Source: Pseudomonas sp. StFLB209
Lineage (GTDB): Bacteria; Pseudomonadota; Gammaproteobacteria; Pseudomonadales; Pseudomonadaceae
DNA: 64,000 nucleotides
Reading direction: 5' to 3'
NCBI RefSeq assembly: GCF_000829415.1
Contig: NZ_AP014637.1
Span: forward strand, 1,438,001 to 1,502,000
Shown here: in pieces, positions 53,177-61,452 of the stretch
Position numbering within the stretch: position 1 is the first letter of the stretch
Layout: each line of letters begins with the position of its first letter
Position numbers and translations under genes: made by a program
Notes under the pieces: generated by a model
The model's input: only the letters and a program-made list of their open reading frames with translations
Database searches by the model: none
What the model was told of the DNA's origin: nothing

Positions 53177-53254
<78 letters not shown>

Positions 53255-53505: not shown

Positions 53506-54684
53506 GTGTGGTGTTTCACAAGTACCAATGAAAACCTGGTCTATGCTCATCTGAAAGCAACTCGTGAGAGCTGAGCATTTATATGGGCCGACCAGCGACT
53601 GTCATTGTCTTGTCTGAAGCCGAAAAATCAGAGCTTCTACGCCGCGTTAAACAGCGTAAGGGTGCGCAGGATGCCGGTGTTCGTGCCGAAATTATCCTGG
53701 CATGCGCAGAGGGAGAGTCTGGAAATGCCATTGCCCAGCGCCTCAACATCAGCAAGGACGTGGTCTCGCGGTGGCGGACGCGCTTTTCAAAGTGGGGGCT
53801 GATTGGCCTGAATGATGAGCATCGTTCGGGCCGCCCGCGGACAATCAGTGATGAACAAGTGCAGAAGGTGATTGATCAGGTTCTGAAGAGCAAACCCGAA
53901 GACGCCAGCCATTGGAGTACCCGGCAAATGAGCCGGGAGACAGGAATATCTCCGGCCAGCGTGATGCGTATCTGGCATGTCTTCGGGATCAAACCTCACT
54001 TGGAAAAAACGTTCAAGCTTTCTACCGATCCTCTTTTCGTCGACAAAGTGCAGGACATCGTGGGCCTTTATTTGAACCCGCCTGAGAGAGCACTGGTGTT
54101 ATGTGTTGATGAGAAGAGCCAGATACAGGCGCTGAACCGCACACAACCAGGGCTGCCTTTAGCGCCTAGAAATCCTGCGACACGCACGCATGATTGCAAG
54201 CGTCACGGAAGGACTTCTCTGTTTGCGGCTCTGGATGTAGCAACGGGCGAAGTCATTGGTCGGTTAAAGCGCCAGCATCGCAGTGTCGAATTTCTATCCT
54301 TTCTCAAAGAGGTTGATGCTTCGGTGCCGAGCGATGTGCCGATCCATCTGATTATGGACAACTACGCAACGCACAAGACCGACAAGGTCAAAGCGTGGCT
54401 AGCCGCGCGTCCTCGTTACAGCGTCCATTTCGCCCCCACGTCTGCCTCATGGATGAATCTGGTGGAGCGCTTTTCTCAACACTGAGAGAGAAATGGATCA
54501 AGCGCCAGGCTCATGTCAGCGTGAAGGGTCTGGAGGCCTCAATCGAGTACTACCTGGAAACCTACAACCAGAATCCGAAGCCATTTCGCTGGCATAAAAA
54601 AACGGACGAGATCTTGGGTTCCGTAGCTCGTGCAGCAAAAGCATTAGGTAAGTAGTTTTATTCCTTACTTGTGAAACACCACAC
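53506..54684 (+). mobile_element. IS630-family insertion sequence
   Basis: Perfect 19-bp terminal inverted repeats GTGTGGTGTTTCACAAGTA (53506-53524 and, complemented, 54666-54684) are flanked by a duplicated TA (53504-53505, 54685-54686), the hallmark of this family. The 1179-bp element carries one transposase gene that reads through a frameshift. Confidence 0.93.
53583..54655 (+). CDS. IS630-family transposase, frameshifted
   Basis: The first frame (53583-54485, 300 residues) has an N-terminal helix-turn-helix ([20 protein letters not shown]). It also carries all three catalytic acidic residues: Asp in [15 protein letters not shown], Asp in [10 protein letters not shown] and Glu in WMNLVERF. 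It ends early at 54483. A -1 shift near 54469-54474, in a TTTT run, joins it to [20 protein letters not shown]...KALGK, which ends at 54655 and is the normal C-terminus. Either one T was lost or the IS uses programmed frameshifting, which is known in this family. Confidence 0.88.
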
Positions 54685-55037: not shown

Positions 55038-55259
55038 CGCCACCTATCTGACTGAACCGTCCCCTCCGCCCAGCTCCTTCATCACTGCCCCCCCTGCAAA
55101 ATCAAACATGCCAAGCAAGCCTCCACGCCAACGCAAAACATCTCAGCAGGCGACGGAGAAAAGATGGCAATATAGCATCATCGACTTGGCTGGTAGATCT
55201 GAAGTCGGTTTGAGGCCAGTACAACTCAACATCCATTTATGGACGCTAAGGGAGACCCA
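55038..55259. other. Upstream region of the NACHT gene
   Basis: About 220 bp. Base composition shifts towards AT as the NACHT gene is approached. The promoter of the NACHT pair should lie here, but no clear box can be named. Confidence 0.4.
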
Positions 55260-57386
55260 ATGAAAACCTTTGACATTGATGGCATAAAACAAACTTTTGA
55301 AAACTACGGTTTCGAGTTTCGCTCTGAATTTTCTAGTAATGACCTAATGATTTTTGCCATTAATCAAGGGATATTTGACAACGCTGTAATTTTACAGAGA
55401 TGCGATGTATCAGCCTCCACACTCAAAGAAGAGCTCTCAGAACTAGGATACCAAGTCAAGATATATAAATACATATCTCTTAAAGCGTTAGAGGACGAGC
55501 TATTTAACGGCTTCTTCTCGATTGCACGCACAAAAAGAAACTTCAAGTCCGACTATCATGATCACATCAGAAAAATAACTGAATCCTTCCCGGAAAGTGC
55601 CAGCGAATATAGCTATATATCTGCGCCATATGTAAAAAACTTTATCGAACATAGTCCTCATGAAGGATTGCTAGAAGATATCAACAAAGAGCTACAAATT
55701 TCTGGTCCAAGACTAATCCTGCTAGAGGCAGCAGCAGGTTATGGAAAGACTTGTACAGCTTACGAAATCGGAAATATGATTTCTGACGGTTCCAAGGAGA
55801 AAATAGTTTTATTTGCTGAGCTTTCACGAGATCGTAAGGCTAAAATTTTCAATCATGTACTTCATAAAGAGCTGGCGCGATCGTTCCCCGCCGTGGAAAC
55901 TGGCCTTGTCTTAAGAGAGATAAAAAACGGTAAAATCATCGTAATCCTCGACGGCTTTGACGAACTGCTTAAAGAAAGGGATGAAGAAGAAAATAGTTTT
56001 GAAAAGTCTCAAGCTATGCTTGAGACAATAGGTGAAATTCTCGATAGCCATGCAAAGGTAATTCTCACCACCCGAAAAACAGCAATTCTCCAAGGTGATG
56101 AATTTGATGACTGGGTGAGCTCTCACGAAAAAGACTTTGATTTCGTAAGGTATAGCTTAAGAGAACCGGAGATAAAACATTGGCTGACCTATGAACGCAT
56201 TGAAAAATTAGAGGCAGCGCGTATCAATGTCAGAAACCTCTCGAATCCAGTTCTTCTTACTTTCCTAAAGTCGGTATCCGATGAGGAGTTTGAAAATATC
56301 CTCGAGTCTCCAGACGGAATTGTAGATCGATATTTCTCATCTCTGTTCATGCGAGAAATCAAACGACAAGATATTAAAATAACTGCTACCGAGCAGTCAG
56401 ATTTATTAAAGCGCCTAGCTCAACACATGATGTATCATGACTACACAAGAACGAGTAAAGAAAGCATAATAAGCTATTTCTCCCATACAGAATCCAGCCT
56501 CATTGAAGTTTCTAGATCAAGATATAATGCTGAGATGCGTCCAAGCTACGACGAAATGGTAGATAGGTTTTCCAACCATGCACTATTGGACAGGTCAACT
56601 GCTGACAATAAAATAGGATTTATTAATGATTTTGTTCTGGGGCATTTTGTAGCATTAGATGTAAACACATCCAACAGTAGCGACTGGGTTGCCGAGAGTA
56701 TCTTTATCGAAGCTGCGGTCAACGCTTATTCATCTCGCTCGCTAGACTCTAGACAACACATTTGGTCGAGGCTTTCAGAAGCCTTGAAATTCATGAGCAC
56801 AGAAGAACGAGTAAGACTTGAATTGAGACTTCTCGACCGCGTTTCAGGCGATGTAGATTCAGTGCAATTTAACGGCTTTAATTTTGACACTGAAGATTTT
56901 TTCAATGAGGATGAAGTCTCTAAGTGCTATTTCATTGATTGCACATTTATTGCCAGCAATCTCAACTTTGACCAAATCAAAAACTGCGTATTCCTCTCTT
57001 GCTCCTTTTACAATTGCACCACAACAGGCGCTAACACAAGCAATGAATTTGTTTCGTGCGAGCATATTGGTGGAGATGTAATCTGCGAAGCCACTAGTGA
57101 AATAAAACTTGAGGCCGAAAACCCTGAGAAAACTGACACAATAAAATTAATTAAAAGCTATATACTTGAAAAATTTTGGCCCATTGGAAACAAAGGCGTG
57201 CCATTCGCGCATCGACCAATTTTCTTTTTCTATCGCGGTAGTCCCTATCCTTCGATGATGACCTCCAAGGCAATCGACGAACTTAGAAAAGATGGATTCT
57301 TAGTCGCCGCCAAAAAGAAAAACTGGATTGGACTTGACCTAACAAACCCAAATTTTGCACTCGTAAAAGAAATGCTGGGACGCTAA
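55260..57386 (+). CDS. NACHT-domain NTPase (bacterial NLR-like), putative anti-phage sensor
   Basis: A 708-residue protein. Residues 1-110 form an N-terminal alpha/beta domain I do not recognise. The NACHT domain starts near 150: Walker A EAAAGYGKTC (156-165), Walker B IIVILDGFDEL (226-236) with the DGxDE form diagnostic of NACHT, and a sensor VILTTRKT (267-274). A winged-helix-like part follows (ALLDRSTADNKIGFINDFVL, 441-460). Residues 556-605 have a Cys/Phe/Asn pattern like pentapeptide beta-helix coils, and a basic C-terminal segment ends the protein. ATG 55260 has AAGGGAGACCCA. The RelA/SpoT gene starts 1 bp after the stop. NACHT proteins of bacteria are phage sensors (family knowledge). 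Confidence 0.85.
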   Translation: MKTFDIDGIKQTFENYGFEFRSEFSSNDLMIFAINQGIFDNAVILQRCDVSASTLKEELSELGYQVKIYKYISLKALEDELFNGFFSIARTKRNFKSDYHDHIRKITESFPESASEYSYISAPYVKNFIEHSPHEGLLEDINKELQISGPRLILLEAAAGYGKTCTAYEIGNMISDGSKEKIVLFAELSRDRKAKIFNHVLHKELARSFPAVETGLVLREIKNGKIIVILDGFDELLKERDEEENSFEKSQAMLETIGEILDSHAKVILTTRKTAILQGDEFDDWVSSHEKDFDFVRYSLREPEIKHWLTYERIEKLEAARINVRNLSNPVLLTFLKSVSDEEFENILESPDGIVDRYFSSLFMREIKRQDIKITATEQSDLLKRLAQHMMYHDYTRTSKESIISYFSHTESSLIEVSRSRYNAEMRPSYDEMVDRFSNHALLDRSTADNKIGFINDFVLGHFVALDVNTSNSSDWVAESIFIEAAVNAYSSRSLDSRQHIWSRLSEALKFMSTEERVRLELRLLDRVSGDVDSVQFNGFNFDTEDFFNEDEVSKCYFIDCTFIASNLNFDQIKNCVFLSCSFYNCTTTGANTSNEFVSCEHIGGDVICEATSEIKLEAENPEKTDTIKLIKSYILEKFWPIGNKGVPFAHRPIFFFYRGSPYPSMMTSKAIDELRKDGFLVAAKKKNWIGLDLTNPNFALVKEMLGR

Positions 57387-57387
57387 A

Positions 57388-58259
57388 ATGCAAACATTTC
57401 AATCGAGCCAGACAACAATTCTCGTAAAAGAAGTTGAAAAAGCCGTTTCAAAAATCGGCATTATGTTTCGGCTTTTTTATCGCGAAAAGACAACTGAATC
57501 GCTATCCAAGAAAGCAACAAAAGTCCCTGGAAAATATGGGAAAGAAAAAAAATCCAAGACATTGTTGGAATCCGCATTGCACTATATTTCATAGACGACG
57601 TTATTGCCGCGCAAGAAATTCTTGAAAAGACTTTCGAGCACCTCAGTGAATTCTCACAAATCGACAAACTTGAAAACGAAAGCTTTAAAGCAATTCGCAG
57701 AAACCTAATATTCAAGCTTCCAGATTACTTCAACGAAAAGGCATTGGTCGGAGAGGAACACCACAACATAATCGATCACACTTTTGAAGTTCAAATTAGA
57801 ACAATTTTGTCGGAGGGCTGGCACGAAGTTGATCATGACCTACGCTACAAGTGCGAGGAAGATTGGATAGGGCTAGATTCAGAAAACAGGGCATTAAATG
57901 GTGTTTATGCGACACTGGAAACTAGTGAATGGACTTTATTGAAGCTTTTCGAAAACCTATCGTACACTCACTACAAATCTGGCAACATCAAGGCAATGTT
58001 ACAAAACAAATTCAGACTTCGCATGAAACATTCTTCAAAAGACTCTGAAATTATCGCCATCCTAAATAAACGCCCCGATTTGGTGAAATCTATATTCAGG
58101 TATGATAGATCTCGTTTCTTCAGTTGCATAGGCGCCCGCCCAGCAGTCCCCATCACTCTTGCCAATATAATCTACACAGTAAATCTCGACGAACTCAAAG
58201 ATCAGGAGTTATTAGACTTTATGCCGGAAACTTTTGCTAGATGGTGGAGCCAAGCTTAA
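57388..58259 (+). CDS. RelA/SpoT-type nucleotide synthetase, requires -1 frameshift at an A8 run
   Basis: The zero frame (57388-57594, 68 codons) encodes FRLFYREKTTESLSKKATK, the substrate-binding basic motif of RelA/SpoT synthetases, then ends. At 57545-57552 eight A residues give a slippery A AAA AAA. Slipping -1 joins it to IQDIVGIRIALYFIDDVIAA and the catalytic FEVQIRTILSEGWHEVDHDL, RYK. The full product would be about 290 residues and carries the motifs of a (p)ppGpp or (p)ppApp-type synthetase without hydrolase or TGS domains. A C-terminal helical part follows. It is one base after the NACHT gene. Programmed slippage or inactivation cannot be told apart here. Confidence 0.72.
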
Positions 58260-58368: not shown

Positions 58369-58782
58369 ATGATGCGCCCCGACGCCAAAGTCGAAAAAGT
58401 CTATCTTTACCCCAAACCGGTGGACTTCCGAAAATCCATCGACGGGCTAGCCGCTCTGGTCGAACTGGATATCAAAGTGGCCGTGTTCGACCCGGTTCTG
58501 TTCGTCTTCCTCGATCGCCACCGTAACCGAGTGAAAATTGGGCTTCGTGACTCGATCTGCCAAGGGCGGAATTCTTCACTTACCCTCACCTATCCATGGA
58601 CGCACATAACGGCCGGACAGCCACCATTCGGCATGCAACCGATTGAGTCGCACAATTCAGAAGTTGTGCGACAAAGAGGATATGCAAGCGGCGCTCAAAA
58701 GCAGCGTATCGAATACGCCGCCATAGGCGGGTACGGAAATGGTCGAGCCAAAAAAATACGCATATTTGTCGGCTGGTCGTAG
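58369..58782 (+). pseudogene. IS66-family TnpB fragment fused to unrelated sequence
   Basis: The first about 57 residues (MMRPDAKVEKVYLYPKPVDF, RKSIDGLAALVELD, VFDPVLFVFLDRHRNRVKI) are a typical IS66 TnpB N-terminus. After that the frame has no resemblance to TnpB (which continues with a Trp/Tyr-rich region), and no TnpC is present. Upstream TCAGGAGCCAGCCGCTC matches the usual IS66 leader. The element is a remnant truncated on the right. Confidence 0.75.
58647..58672. repeat. Perfect 9-bp inverted repeat
   Basis: GTCGCACAA and TTGTGCGAC flank an 8-nt loop, just past the point where TnpB homology ends. It may be the end of a lost mobile element. Confidence 0.5.
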
Positions 58783-59028: not shown

Positions 59029-59604
59029 TTATTTGTTTGCGGCCATTAAAGCAGCCGAAAATAAAGAAAACTCCTTCGAACTATCACTTTCGGCTTCCAA
59101 TGCGTGGAGCAGAATATTTTGCAGTGCTACGTTCGAGGTTCTATAGCACGCATCAAGCGCGTGTTGAAGATCCGCTAAGCGCATCGCCCTGCGTTCGATG
59201 AGCTCCGCACGATTTAAATCAGTTGTAATGATGGTGATGGCCCCTCGTTCACTTCCAGCTTTGTGACGCATGATCGTCCCAAATGCTATAAGGTGTTCAG
59301 AAGGGTCTTCAGAGTACGGGTCTATCAAAGGGCAGTTTTCATCAAATTGATCTTTTTTAGCATTATTGCACCGAGCACAACAAAATCCAAGATTGCTCCA
59401 TTCAAACTCTAAGTGCGGGAATCTATTTTCAGCTTTCGGTTTTATATGCTCTACATCTCCGAAATACACGTGAGACACATGACTTTCACAGTACATGCAT
59501 TTACCATTAGAAGCACCTTCCAACGCTGCTTTGTTCTCAGAGTTTTTATAGTTGGCCCGAAGAGCTATCGGGTTTGGACATGCCGGGCGATGAAGTCGTA
59601 TCAT
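59029..59604 (-). CDS. ptuB: HNH endonuclease, Septu PtuB-like
   Basis: A 191-residue nuclease. The HNH core reads GKCMYCESHVSHVYFGDVEH, IKPKAEN and GFCCARCNNAKKDQFDENCP, with two Cys pairs for zinc and the catalytic His in VEHIKPK. LIDPYSEDPSEHL follows, as in Septu PtuB. ATG 59604 overlaps the ptuA stop as ATGA and has GGGGATAATAA before it. In Septu the ATPase binds PtuB and licenses nuclease action against phage (family knowledge). Confidence 0.85.
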   Translation of the reverse strand: MIRLHRPACPNPIALRANYKNSENKAALEGASNGKCMYCESHVSHVYFGDVEHIKPKAENRFPHLEFEWSNLGFCCARCNNAKKDQFDENCPLIDPYSEDPSEHLIAFGTIMRHKAGSERGAITIITTDLNRAELIERRAMRLADLQHALDACYRTSNVALQNILLHALEAESDSSKEFSLFSAALMAANK

Positions 59605-60845
59605 TTATTATCCCCTGCAATAGTTGCAATTGCTTGGGGGAACAGCCGACCGAGCCCATTGCGCTCTAAGTCATCGCGCATATTAACCAAGGATTCAGCC
59701 GTGGGGTCGGCGTCGGCATACTTCCTTATTATGGAAGTAAGCTTAACTATTGCCCAGTCTGGAATCGTTGTCGAAACACCTAGAACCTCATCGAGAATAT
59801 CAACAGCATTTTTAACCTCACTTTTGAAATCCAGTAAATAGGAGCGGACTTTCTTATTCTCATCATAGCGAAGCGCATATACATGGGAGTTCTCGACCGA
59901 TGTCACGATCAGAGGGCTATGGGTCGTTACGATAAATTTAGCATGTGGGAACGCAGCCACCAAGCTGGGTAACAGAGTGCGTTGCATGCTTGGGTGTAAA
60001 TGGTTTTCGACCTCGTCAATTACAACCGCGAAAGGCTCTTTCGCGTCGTTGTCAAACATGTAGATCTGCCAGGCAATATCAATAAGCGCAGCGATTCCTC
60101 CCGACGCGGTTTCCAGCAGGAATTCATCTGCCCCTTTGTTGCAACAAAAAACGATTTCGTAATCCCTTACTTCGAGGTCTTCAAATCCGAGCGTTTTTGG
60201 AAGTATAAGTCTGAGCGCGTCCCGAAAACCCTCAAAATTTTTTATTTGTTGAGGGTCTGAGGGCATTATGACCTTGGTTTCGCTTTTGACACCATATCCA
60301 TTAATCATCCAGCTTAGCAAGGTGCTTTTCATTAGAAAACTCTGAGGCTCTCCCCCTGCACCTGCATGCCTGTTAATTAGGTTCGATTGGATTTCAGAAA
60401 AAGCGGTTTGCCGTTCTTTTCTTGTCGTAGCTATCTGCCCGACGCGGCGATAGGAAAAAACCTGTCGATGTGATGGTATGAAAAAGAAATTTGCATGTTG
60501 TTGATTTCTTATTTCTACCTGATATTGAGCGCCGCCGGCTTCGGGCGCTATTAGATCTGATGCTGCATTATTTGTGTATATTATTGAGCCAATATTCCGA
60601 TCGCTAGTCACGCTTTTGCTAAACATTCGCGTAAGAGAAAAATATTTAAGTGCTTTAGTTAAGATATCAGTTTTAGGTGTTGCTAGTGAGATATGGCTCC
60701 ACCCCATGTGTCGGGCGAGGAGCGACAATATCGTCGTTTTTCCGCTACCGTTGGATCCGGTAATTATTGTGGCTTGAGGATGAAATTTAATGTCGACTTC
60801 CCCAAACTGTTGCCAATCTTTCAATTTTAATCTATCGAAATCCAT
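59601..60845 (-). CDS. ptuA: AAA/ABC-type ATPase, Septu PtuA-like
   Basis: A 414-residue ATPase of the OLD/RecF-like ABC class. KLKDWQQFGEVDIKFHPQAT leads to Walker A GSNGSGKTTILSLLARH. The ABC signature region is LLETASGGIAALIDIAWQIY, and Walker B is FAVVIDEVENHLHPSMQRTL with the H-loop in FIVTTHSPLIV. It is the upstream partner of the HNH gene, the order of PtuA-PtuB. Other two-gene ATPase/HNH systems are possible, but the size and HNH type fit Septu best. The start ATG 60845 has a weak ribosome binding site. Confidence 0.83.
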   Translation of the reverse strand: MDFDRLKLKDWQQFGEVDIKFHPQATIITGSNGSGKTTILSLLARHMGWSHISLATPKTDILTKALKYFSLTRMFSKSVTSDRNIGSIIYTNNAASDLIAPEAGGAQYQVEIRNQQHANFFFIPSHRQVFSYRRVGQIATTRKERQTAFSEIQSNLINRHAGAGGEPQSFLMKSTLLSWMINGYGVKSETKVIMPSDPQQIKNFEGFRDALRLILPKTLGFEDLEVRDYEIVFCCNKGADEFLLETASGGIAALIDIAWQIYMFDNDAKEPFAVVIDEVENHLHPSMQRTLLPSLVAAFPHAKFIVTTHSPLIVTSVENSHVYALRYDENKKVRSYLLDFKSEVKNAVDILDEVLGVSTTIPDWAIVKLTSIIRKYADADPTAESLVNMRDDLERNGLGRLFPQAIATIAGDNK

Positions 60846-61403: not shown

Positions 61404-61452
61404 GACTTGTAATCAGTAGGTGCCGAGTTCGATTCTTGGTGCCGGCACCATA
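61404..61452 (+). repeat. Attachment site attR (copy of tRNA-Thr 3' end)
   Basis: Identical to 53206-53254 except one base, including the CCA end and following TA. Only the 3' part is present, so this is not a second tRNA gene. Confidence 0.9.

Follow-up and report, generated by a model that had tools for sequence, protein, structure and literature searches.

Enzymes of the RelA type are already known in bacterial defence, and those described either carry their own sensor or are paired with a small antitoxin (PMC11782079 and PMC9712102). CapRel, whose sensor is fused to the enzyme, needs the tyrosine Y155 (PMC9712102), and in FaRel2 the corresponding Y128 is the base-coordinating tyrosine of the G-loop, while the small antitoxin of that system carries a YXXY motif tied to blocking of the ATP site (PMC11782079). 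Bacterial NACHT proteins, related to nucleotide-binding leucine-rich repeat (NLR) proteins, have been described with the effector as the N-terminal part of the protein itself, as for the PD-(D/E)XK DNase of bNACHT25; clade 14 has none discernible (PMC12169576). Finally, in the vWA-MoxR ternary systems a RelA domain is one of the less frequent nucleotide-generating domains and NACHT-clade NTPases are sporadic; the passages available of that account contain no NACHT and RelA/SpoT pair (PMC7159879). Here we describe such a pair in Pseudomonas sp. StFLB209, within a stretch of 64,000 nucleotides (the window; bases 1438001-1502000 of a one-contig, 6.33-Mb genome), where a gene for a NACHT ATPase is followed by a separate RelA/SpoT-type synthetase gene. 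The pair recurs in five phyla, and its enzyme family keeps an ATP-donor site and has lost the classical acceptor loop. The initial annotation of this DNA knew of no described system with this pairing, and we found none in the literature searched; a paper of 2023 in Cell on NACHT proteins of bacteria, a likely source of the NA-iREase names, may already mention it.

That annotation proposed that the adjacent genes form a unit, an idea it would have given up had the pair never recurred or had the synthetase been a dead remnant in all relatives. We found the opposite on both counts. Among the 80 loci that the synthetase profile gave in genome_contigs, the best of 168 encoding a relative, 65 have a NACHT gene directly upstream (neighbouring genes were scored with our own profiles, built from protein matches, and start codons were chosen by script). 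The NACHT gene is a single full open reading frame (ORF) in 60 of these and is split or cut in five (L018, L034, L070, L073, and L011, where the contig ends); the synthetase reads as a single open frame in 65/65, counting L037, which is cut by a contig end. When two plasmids are added to the 65 loci, the intergenic gap is −11 to +17 nt in 67/67 pairs. Pairs occur in Pseudomonadota, Campylobacterota, Bacteroidota, Bacillota and Myxococcota. Twelve plasmid records matched; three regions were inspected, and the pair is intact in Klebsiella pneumoniae and lacks the 5′ part of the NACHT gene in Yersinia hibernica.

Surveys around the window gave the same picture. Five of 298 genomes of the same genus encode the NACHT protein, and the identical five have a strong, adjacent synthetase match (E <1e-114); weaker synthetase matches stand alone in 16 further genomes (best E 1.2e-20 to 2.5e-11). 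The N-terminal NA-iREase2 domain of the NACHT protein was found in those five genomes and in 0/14 control genomes. Among 146 genomes of the class both genes fall in the identical two, one of them the window's own, and searches of viral contigs with each gene led to one and the same set of seven, with the genes adjacent in all seven (four are near-copies, and one has its NACHT gene split in two). In total, 13/13 NACHT finds (6 genomes, 7 viral contigs) come with a synthetase, the window's being broken. The phylum sample of 398 genomes held the NACHT gene in the window genome only and one weak synthetase match (G465, E 3.7e-24, residues 7-161 of 291), and the phage records gave one weak, partial match (28.6% identity over 43% of the query). 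No ORF matching both profiles, as a fusion would, was present in the 80 genome_contigs loci, plasmids and viral contigs scanned. Distances among NACHT proteins and among synthetases are closely correlated (Mantel r 0.907, 59 pairs, 0/2000 permutations as high). Recurrence in the genome_contigs, same-genus, class and viral-contig surveys led us to reject a chance neighbourhood: the pair is real and strongly conserved, and from the NACHT side the pairing is near-obligate.

As a separate observation, the synthetases of L010 (Pseudomonas borbori) and L011 (an Undibacterium bin) are nearly identical, which may reflect recent transfer or a binning error.

In the window the pair comprises the following features.

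55260..57386, plus strand: NACHT protein, 708 aa, intact (ORF list, Pfam scan, structure model)
55284..55637, plus strand: N-terminal NA-iREase2 domain, PF22723 (Pfam, E 8.3e-26)
55710..56087, plus strand: NACHT domain, PF05729 (Pfam; Walker A/B)
56865..57068, plus strand: pentapeptide-like beta region, a candidate sensor (weak matches, model strands)
57388..57594, plus strand: RelA/SpoT gene, first frame, with the ATP-site residues R-x-K, S and K; departs from the frame of the family at the A8 run (ORFs, comparison with the relative P0003)
57545..57552, plus strand: A8 run, with the frame change around it (sequence)
57546..58259, plus strand: RelA/SpoT gene, second piece in another frame, with PF04607 and the C-terminal helical part (ORFs, Pfam)

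The NACHT protein (708 residues, or 715 from an alternative start at 55239) has the Walker A motif GYGKT, with K163, and the Walker B motif ILDGFDEL that the initial annotation reported, and its PF05729 score of 30.8 bits exceeds the curated cut-off of 26.7. K163 and the Walker B residues D231, D234 and E235 are invariant in 83/83 relatives. This central NACHT domain with its Walker motifs is what the protein has in common with bNACHT25 and other bacterial NACHT proteins, and in Foldseek comparisons of its predicted structure (pLDDT 86.9, pTM 0.71) NLRP3 and NOD2 come first, followed closely by ORC/Cdc6 and further AAA+ proteins. The beta strands of the model include those of the pentapeptide-like region, for which the matches are weak (Pentapeptide_4, E 0.41; the MCBG-like chain 2xt2, E 8e-4). 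The N-terminal domain, left unnamed in the initial annotation, is NA-iREase2, so that through PF22723 this half of the pair belongs to a family already in Pfam. No D, E, H or K column of the NA-iREase2 region is kept in at least 80% of the 83 relatives, and because it has no conserved catalytic-type residue this nuclease-like domain looks dead. Thus, in contrast to bNACHT25, the protein appears to lack an active effector in its own chain, and the enzyme of the pair is a second gene.

The enzyme family, in turn, departs from its relatives at one side of the active site. The ATP-donor residues are retained in 87-88 of 88 family sequences; the SYNTH domain and the donor motif RxK...S...K are common to RelQ and RelP, and the donor residues and their spacing to FaRel2. 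By predicted domain and donor site, then, the proteins qualify as RelA/SpoT homologues (RSHs) or small alarmone synthetases. In the acceptor loop, by contrast, the tyrosine and histidine are both absent when the family is aligned with outgroup RSHs (0/83 each): the pattern FGYxSxH, which reads GYRSYH in RelQ, becomes Fx[APV]xRxN, with asparagine for histidine in 83/83 and arginine in 75. The lost tyrosine corresponds in this alignment to residue 102 of P0003 (the HMMER register differs by about one column). None of the 88 sequences has a tyrosine at residues 101, 102 or 103; column 105 is a tyrosine in 32/88.

The G-loop tyrosine and the following S-x-H of the RSH acceptor site are missing, and with them the tyrosine that toxic small alarmone synthetases (toxSAS) need for activity. 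Since tyrosine and histidine are gone in 83/83 while the donor site is kept, we suggest that the enzyme should not yet be labelled an alarmone synthetase. The initial annotation had supposed that phage sensing by the NACHT protein triggers alarmone or pyrophosphate transfer; the fold and donor site of the enzyme are retained, and the acceptor residues of the RelQ/CapRel type are not. The same comparison bears on whether the pair is an ordinary toxSAS system, in which the NACHT protein replaces the fused sensor and the enzyme makes (p)ppApp or (p)ppGpp, or pyrophosphorylates the tRNA 3′-CCA as CapRel and FaRel2 do. The shared donor site would fit such a system. However, CapRel retains Y155 and FaRel2 has Y128, and the family has neither this tyrosine nor the histidine (the loop of Tas1-type (p)ppApp synthetases lay outside the comparison), so we regard this alternative as unlikely.

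We give somewhat better than even chances to the view that the pair is a two-gene, NACHT-controlled pyrophosphotransferase module, probably anti-phage. In this model the NACHT protein would be the infection sensor and switch, as its family and fold suggest for a STAND-type ATPase, and its dead-looking nuclease-like domain may play the part of an adaptor. Infection would cause the NACHT protein to assemble and to switch on, in trans, the RelA-like enzyme encoded next to it. ATP would be the pyrophosphate donor, because the donor site is intact; guanosine nucleotides, and tRNA 3′ ends bound as in known enzymes, are both improbable as acceptors, because the tyrosine and histidine of the classical loop are absent; and the product would halt growth or phage production. 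The pair would thus work as an NLR-type switch with a RelA-type effector, one lacking the acceptor loop of the alarmone synthetase and toxSAS families. In CapRel the sensor is part of the enzyme, whereas the putative sensor of the pair is a separate NACHT ATPase. We put forward more tentatively, at rather less than even confidence, the full reading of an immune module, widespread among bacteria, whose NLR-like NACHT protein acts in trans to activate a pyrophosphotransferase of RelA fold that uses a new acceptor (not guanosine nucleotides, and not the tRNA 3′-CCA bound in the known way). If a new acceptor is indeed used, the module would bring a new abortive-infection chemistry, and NLR-like systems of bacteria would gain a new arrangement of the effector. 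The order of action could also be reversed, with the synthetase making a nucleotide signal and the NACHT protein serving as receptor and effector. Layouts of a signal synthase plus an effector are common in defence, but no active effector domain can be recognised in the NACHT protein, and we consider the reverse order very unlikely.

The conserved split between a NACHT switch and a RelA-like enzyme, found in five phyla and on plasmids, is tractable, with an intact copy in E. coli. It lets one ask how an NLR-like ATPase activates a partner enzyme, and which molecule is modified by a RelA fold whose classical acceptor loop is gone.

A further alternative is a toxin-antitoxin pair, in which the NACHT protein would neutralise a toxic synthetase. 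The two-gene operon with its gap of a few nucleotides invites this reading, as toxSAS toxins are found in such operons (PMC11782079). The E. coli copies bear on it most directly. Among 5426 E. coli genomes, 66 match the synthetase gene (60 of them over 80% of the gene) and 60 match the NACHT gene (54 over 80%), both on chromosomes; the three regions inspected lie beside ssrA and an integrase gene, from which we infer integration at ssrA. Among the 60 of 66 synthetase matches listed, 46 carry a full-length annotation, 9 copies are broken and in 5 just a 3′ remnant is left. The NACHT gene appears whole in 39 of its 60 matches and is interrupted, frameshifted or truncated in 21. A full-length annotated synthetase is retained by 17 of the 21 genomes with a broken NACHT gene, and in the other four both genes are broken; six genomes have a whole NACHT gene and a broken synthetase. 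A free toxin, if expressed, would be selected against, and because a full-length synthetase without a working NACHT gene is tolerated, these counts favour activation by the NACHT protein over neutralisation. STAND ATPases are, moreover, usually activators. Unlike the small FaRel2 antitoxin, the partner here is a 700-aa ATPase whose loss can leave behind an enzyme still annotated as full-length. A plain antitoxin role for the NACHT protein, and with it a toxin-antitoxin pair, is therefore improbable.

The breaks themselves are of several kinds. Twelve of the NACHT matches appear as two ORFs, which may be one event (the deletion was located in one, L139). Ten broken synthetase copies were compared: a T8 run carries an insertion in four and a deletion in two, another two have their deletion elsewhere, and a nonsense mutation accounts for the last two; in some of the copies (L134, L136) homopolymer indels occur at several places and may reflect errors of assembly. 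The T8 run, inside the synthetase gene at L107:13593-14498, may be a mutational switch or the site of an assembly error. In L109, L133 and L141, insertion sequence (IS) elements interrupt or adjoin a truncated NACHT gene, with the synthetase annotated as full-length in L109 and L141.

In 15/80 loci the synthetase has no NACHT gene upstream, one of them (L063) at a contig edge. Together with a plasmid protein of Lachnospira eligens, these solo members, which include Lachnospiraceae, fall in several branches: ten Bacteroidales in one clade (L055, L062, L068, L069, L072, L074, L076, L077, L083, L084), two Blautia, and others. Their flanks carry ribosomal (L13/S9), transport and metabolic genes and the families HATPase_c_2, SpoIIE and DAGK; nine PADLOC families were found among 59 flanking proteins, each in one. 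The tyrosine and histidine are lost here too (16/16), so the altered enzyme family is wider than the pair. The L. eligens member (L087:5914-7743) is encoded within a gene of some 609 codons, which lies 3 nt downstream of one for adenosine deaminase.

Several points weigh against a NACHT-controlled immune module. The loss of tyrosine and histidine could also mark a non-catalytic ATP binder. Loss of the NACHT gene may silence the synthetase through translational coupling, which would weaken the argument drawn from E. coli against an antitoxin. The solo loci show the enzyme family to occur outside the NACHT pairing as well, and correlated distances are expected of any two co-inherited genes. Finally, known defence genes are no more than moderately frequent next to the pair: 3/148 flanking proteins are type I specificity subunits (148 of 175 selected proteins were compared for pairs and 59/59 for solo loci, with the 25 commonest families listed).

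The window's own synthetase gene is not in one frame. As the initial annotation stated, the NACHT stop is followed after one base by an ATG (57388), and all of the motifs it reported for a stand-alone RelA/SpoT gene were found; the single intact frame was not, the gene being split around the A8 run. The first frame carries YREKTTESLSKK and stops at 57594, and DIVGIRIA, FEVQIRT and HDLRYK all lie in another frame that runs to 58259, in contrast to intact relatives of about 290 aa. PF04607 is matched by the second piece alone (E 4.7e-12). By eye, in comparison with P0003, the first piece retains the donor-site residues, and the second retains the invariant columns of the family alignment A1, in which it is itself one row. 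The copy is a recent break, an assembly indel error at the homopolymer, or a gene read by slippage, the last being ranked least likely; because the synthetase is broken, the window copy is probably inactive. That it still works, its halves joined by slippage at A8 or the break being an assembly error, is possible but doubtful. Both halves keep the key residues of the family, A runs of 7-9 at conserved Lys-Lys codons offer a possible slippage spot in 21 of the 57 related loci where the place could be located, and some E. coli copies differ by indels in the T8 run, several in doubtful assemblies. Paired relatives in genome_contigs, however, read the synthetase in a single frame, and no unusual RNA structure was found downstream of the A8 run (z 0.27), on which ground a programmed frameshift with a stimulator was rejected. 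The same genome also encodes, at 4553560-4554051, another protein with a RelA/SpoT domain, distinct from this one (E 1.6e-16 against the family).

The pair sits in an island with these further features.

53177..53252, plus strand: tRNA-Thr, left island border (ARAGORN)
53206..53254, plus strand: 49-nt direct repeat over the tRNA-Thr 3′ end, attL-like (repeat search)
53583..54485, plus strand: transposase ORF with a DDE_3 domain (ORF list, Pfam)
58369..58782, plus strand: IS66 Orf2 (TnpB) fragment (PF05717, residues 10-57 of 137)
59029..59604, minus strand: PtuB-type HNH nuclease of Septu (PDLC00337, E 5.4e-66)
59601..60845, minus strand: PtuA-type ATPase of Septu (PDLC00290, E 1.6e-150)
61404..61452, plus strand: attR-like right border, where the 49-nt repeat recurs at 98% identity (repeat search)

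The description of an AT-rich, tRNA-integrated island beside a Septu-like pair held up on each point. Between the repeats lie 8.2 kb of AT-rich DNA (40% GC at 56-58 kb, against about 61% around it) that contain a transposase remnant, the pair, the IS66 fragment and the Septu genes. By its predicted PtuA ATPase and PtuB HNH nuclease the neighbour qualifies as Septu. No integrase was found among the larger ORFs of the island, which were scanned with Pfam. The DDE_3 transposase, which we take to be of the IS630 type, looks by eye to continue in another frame in the ORF at 54395-54655.
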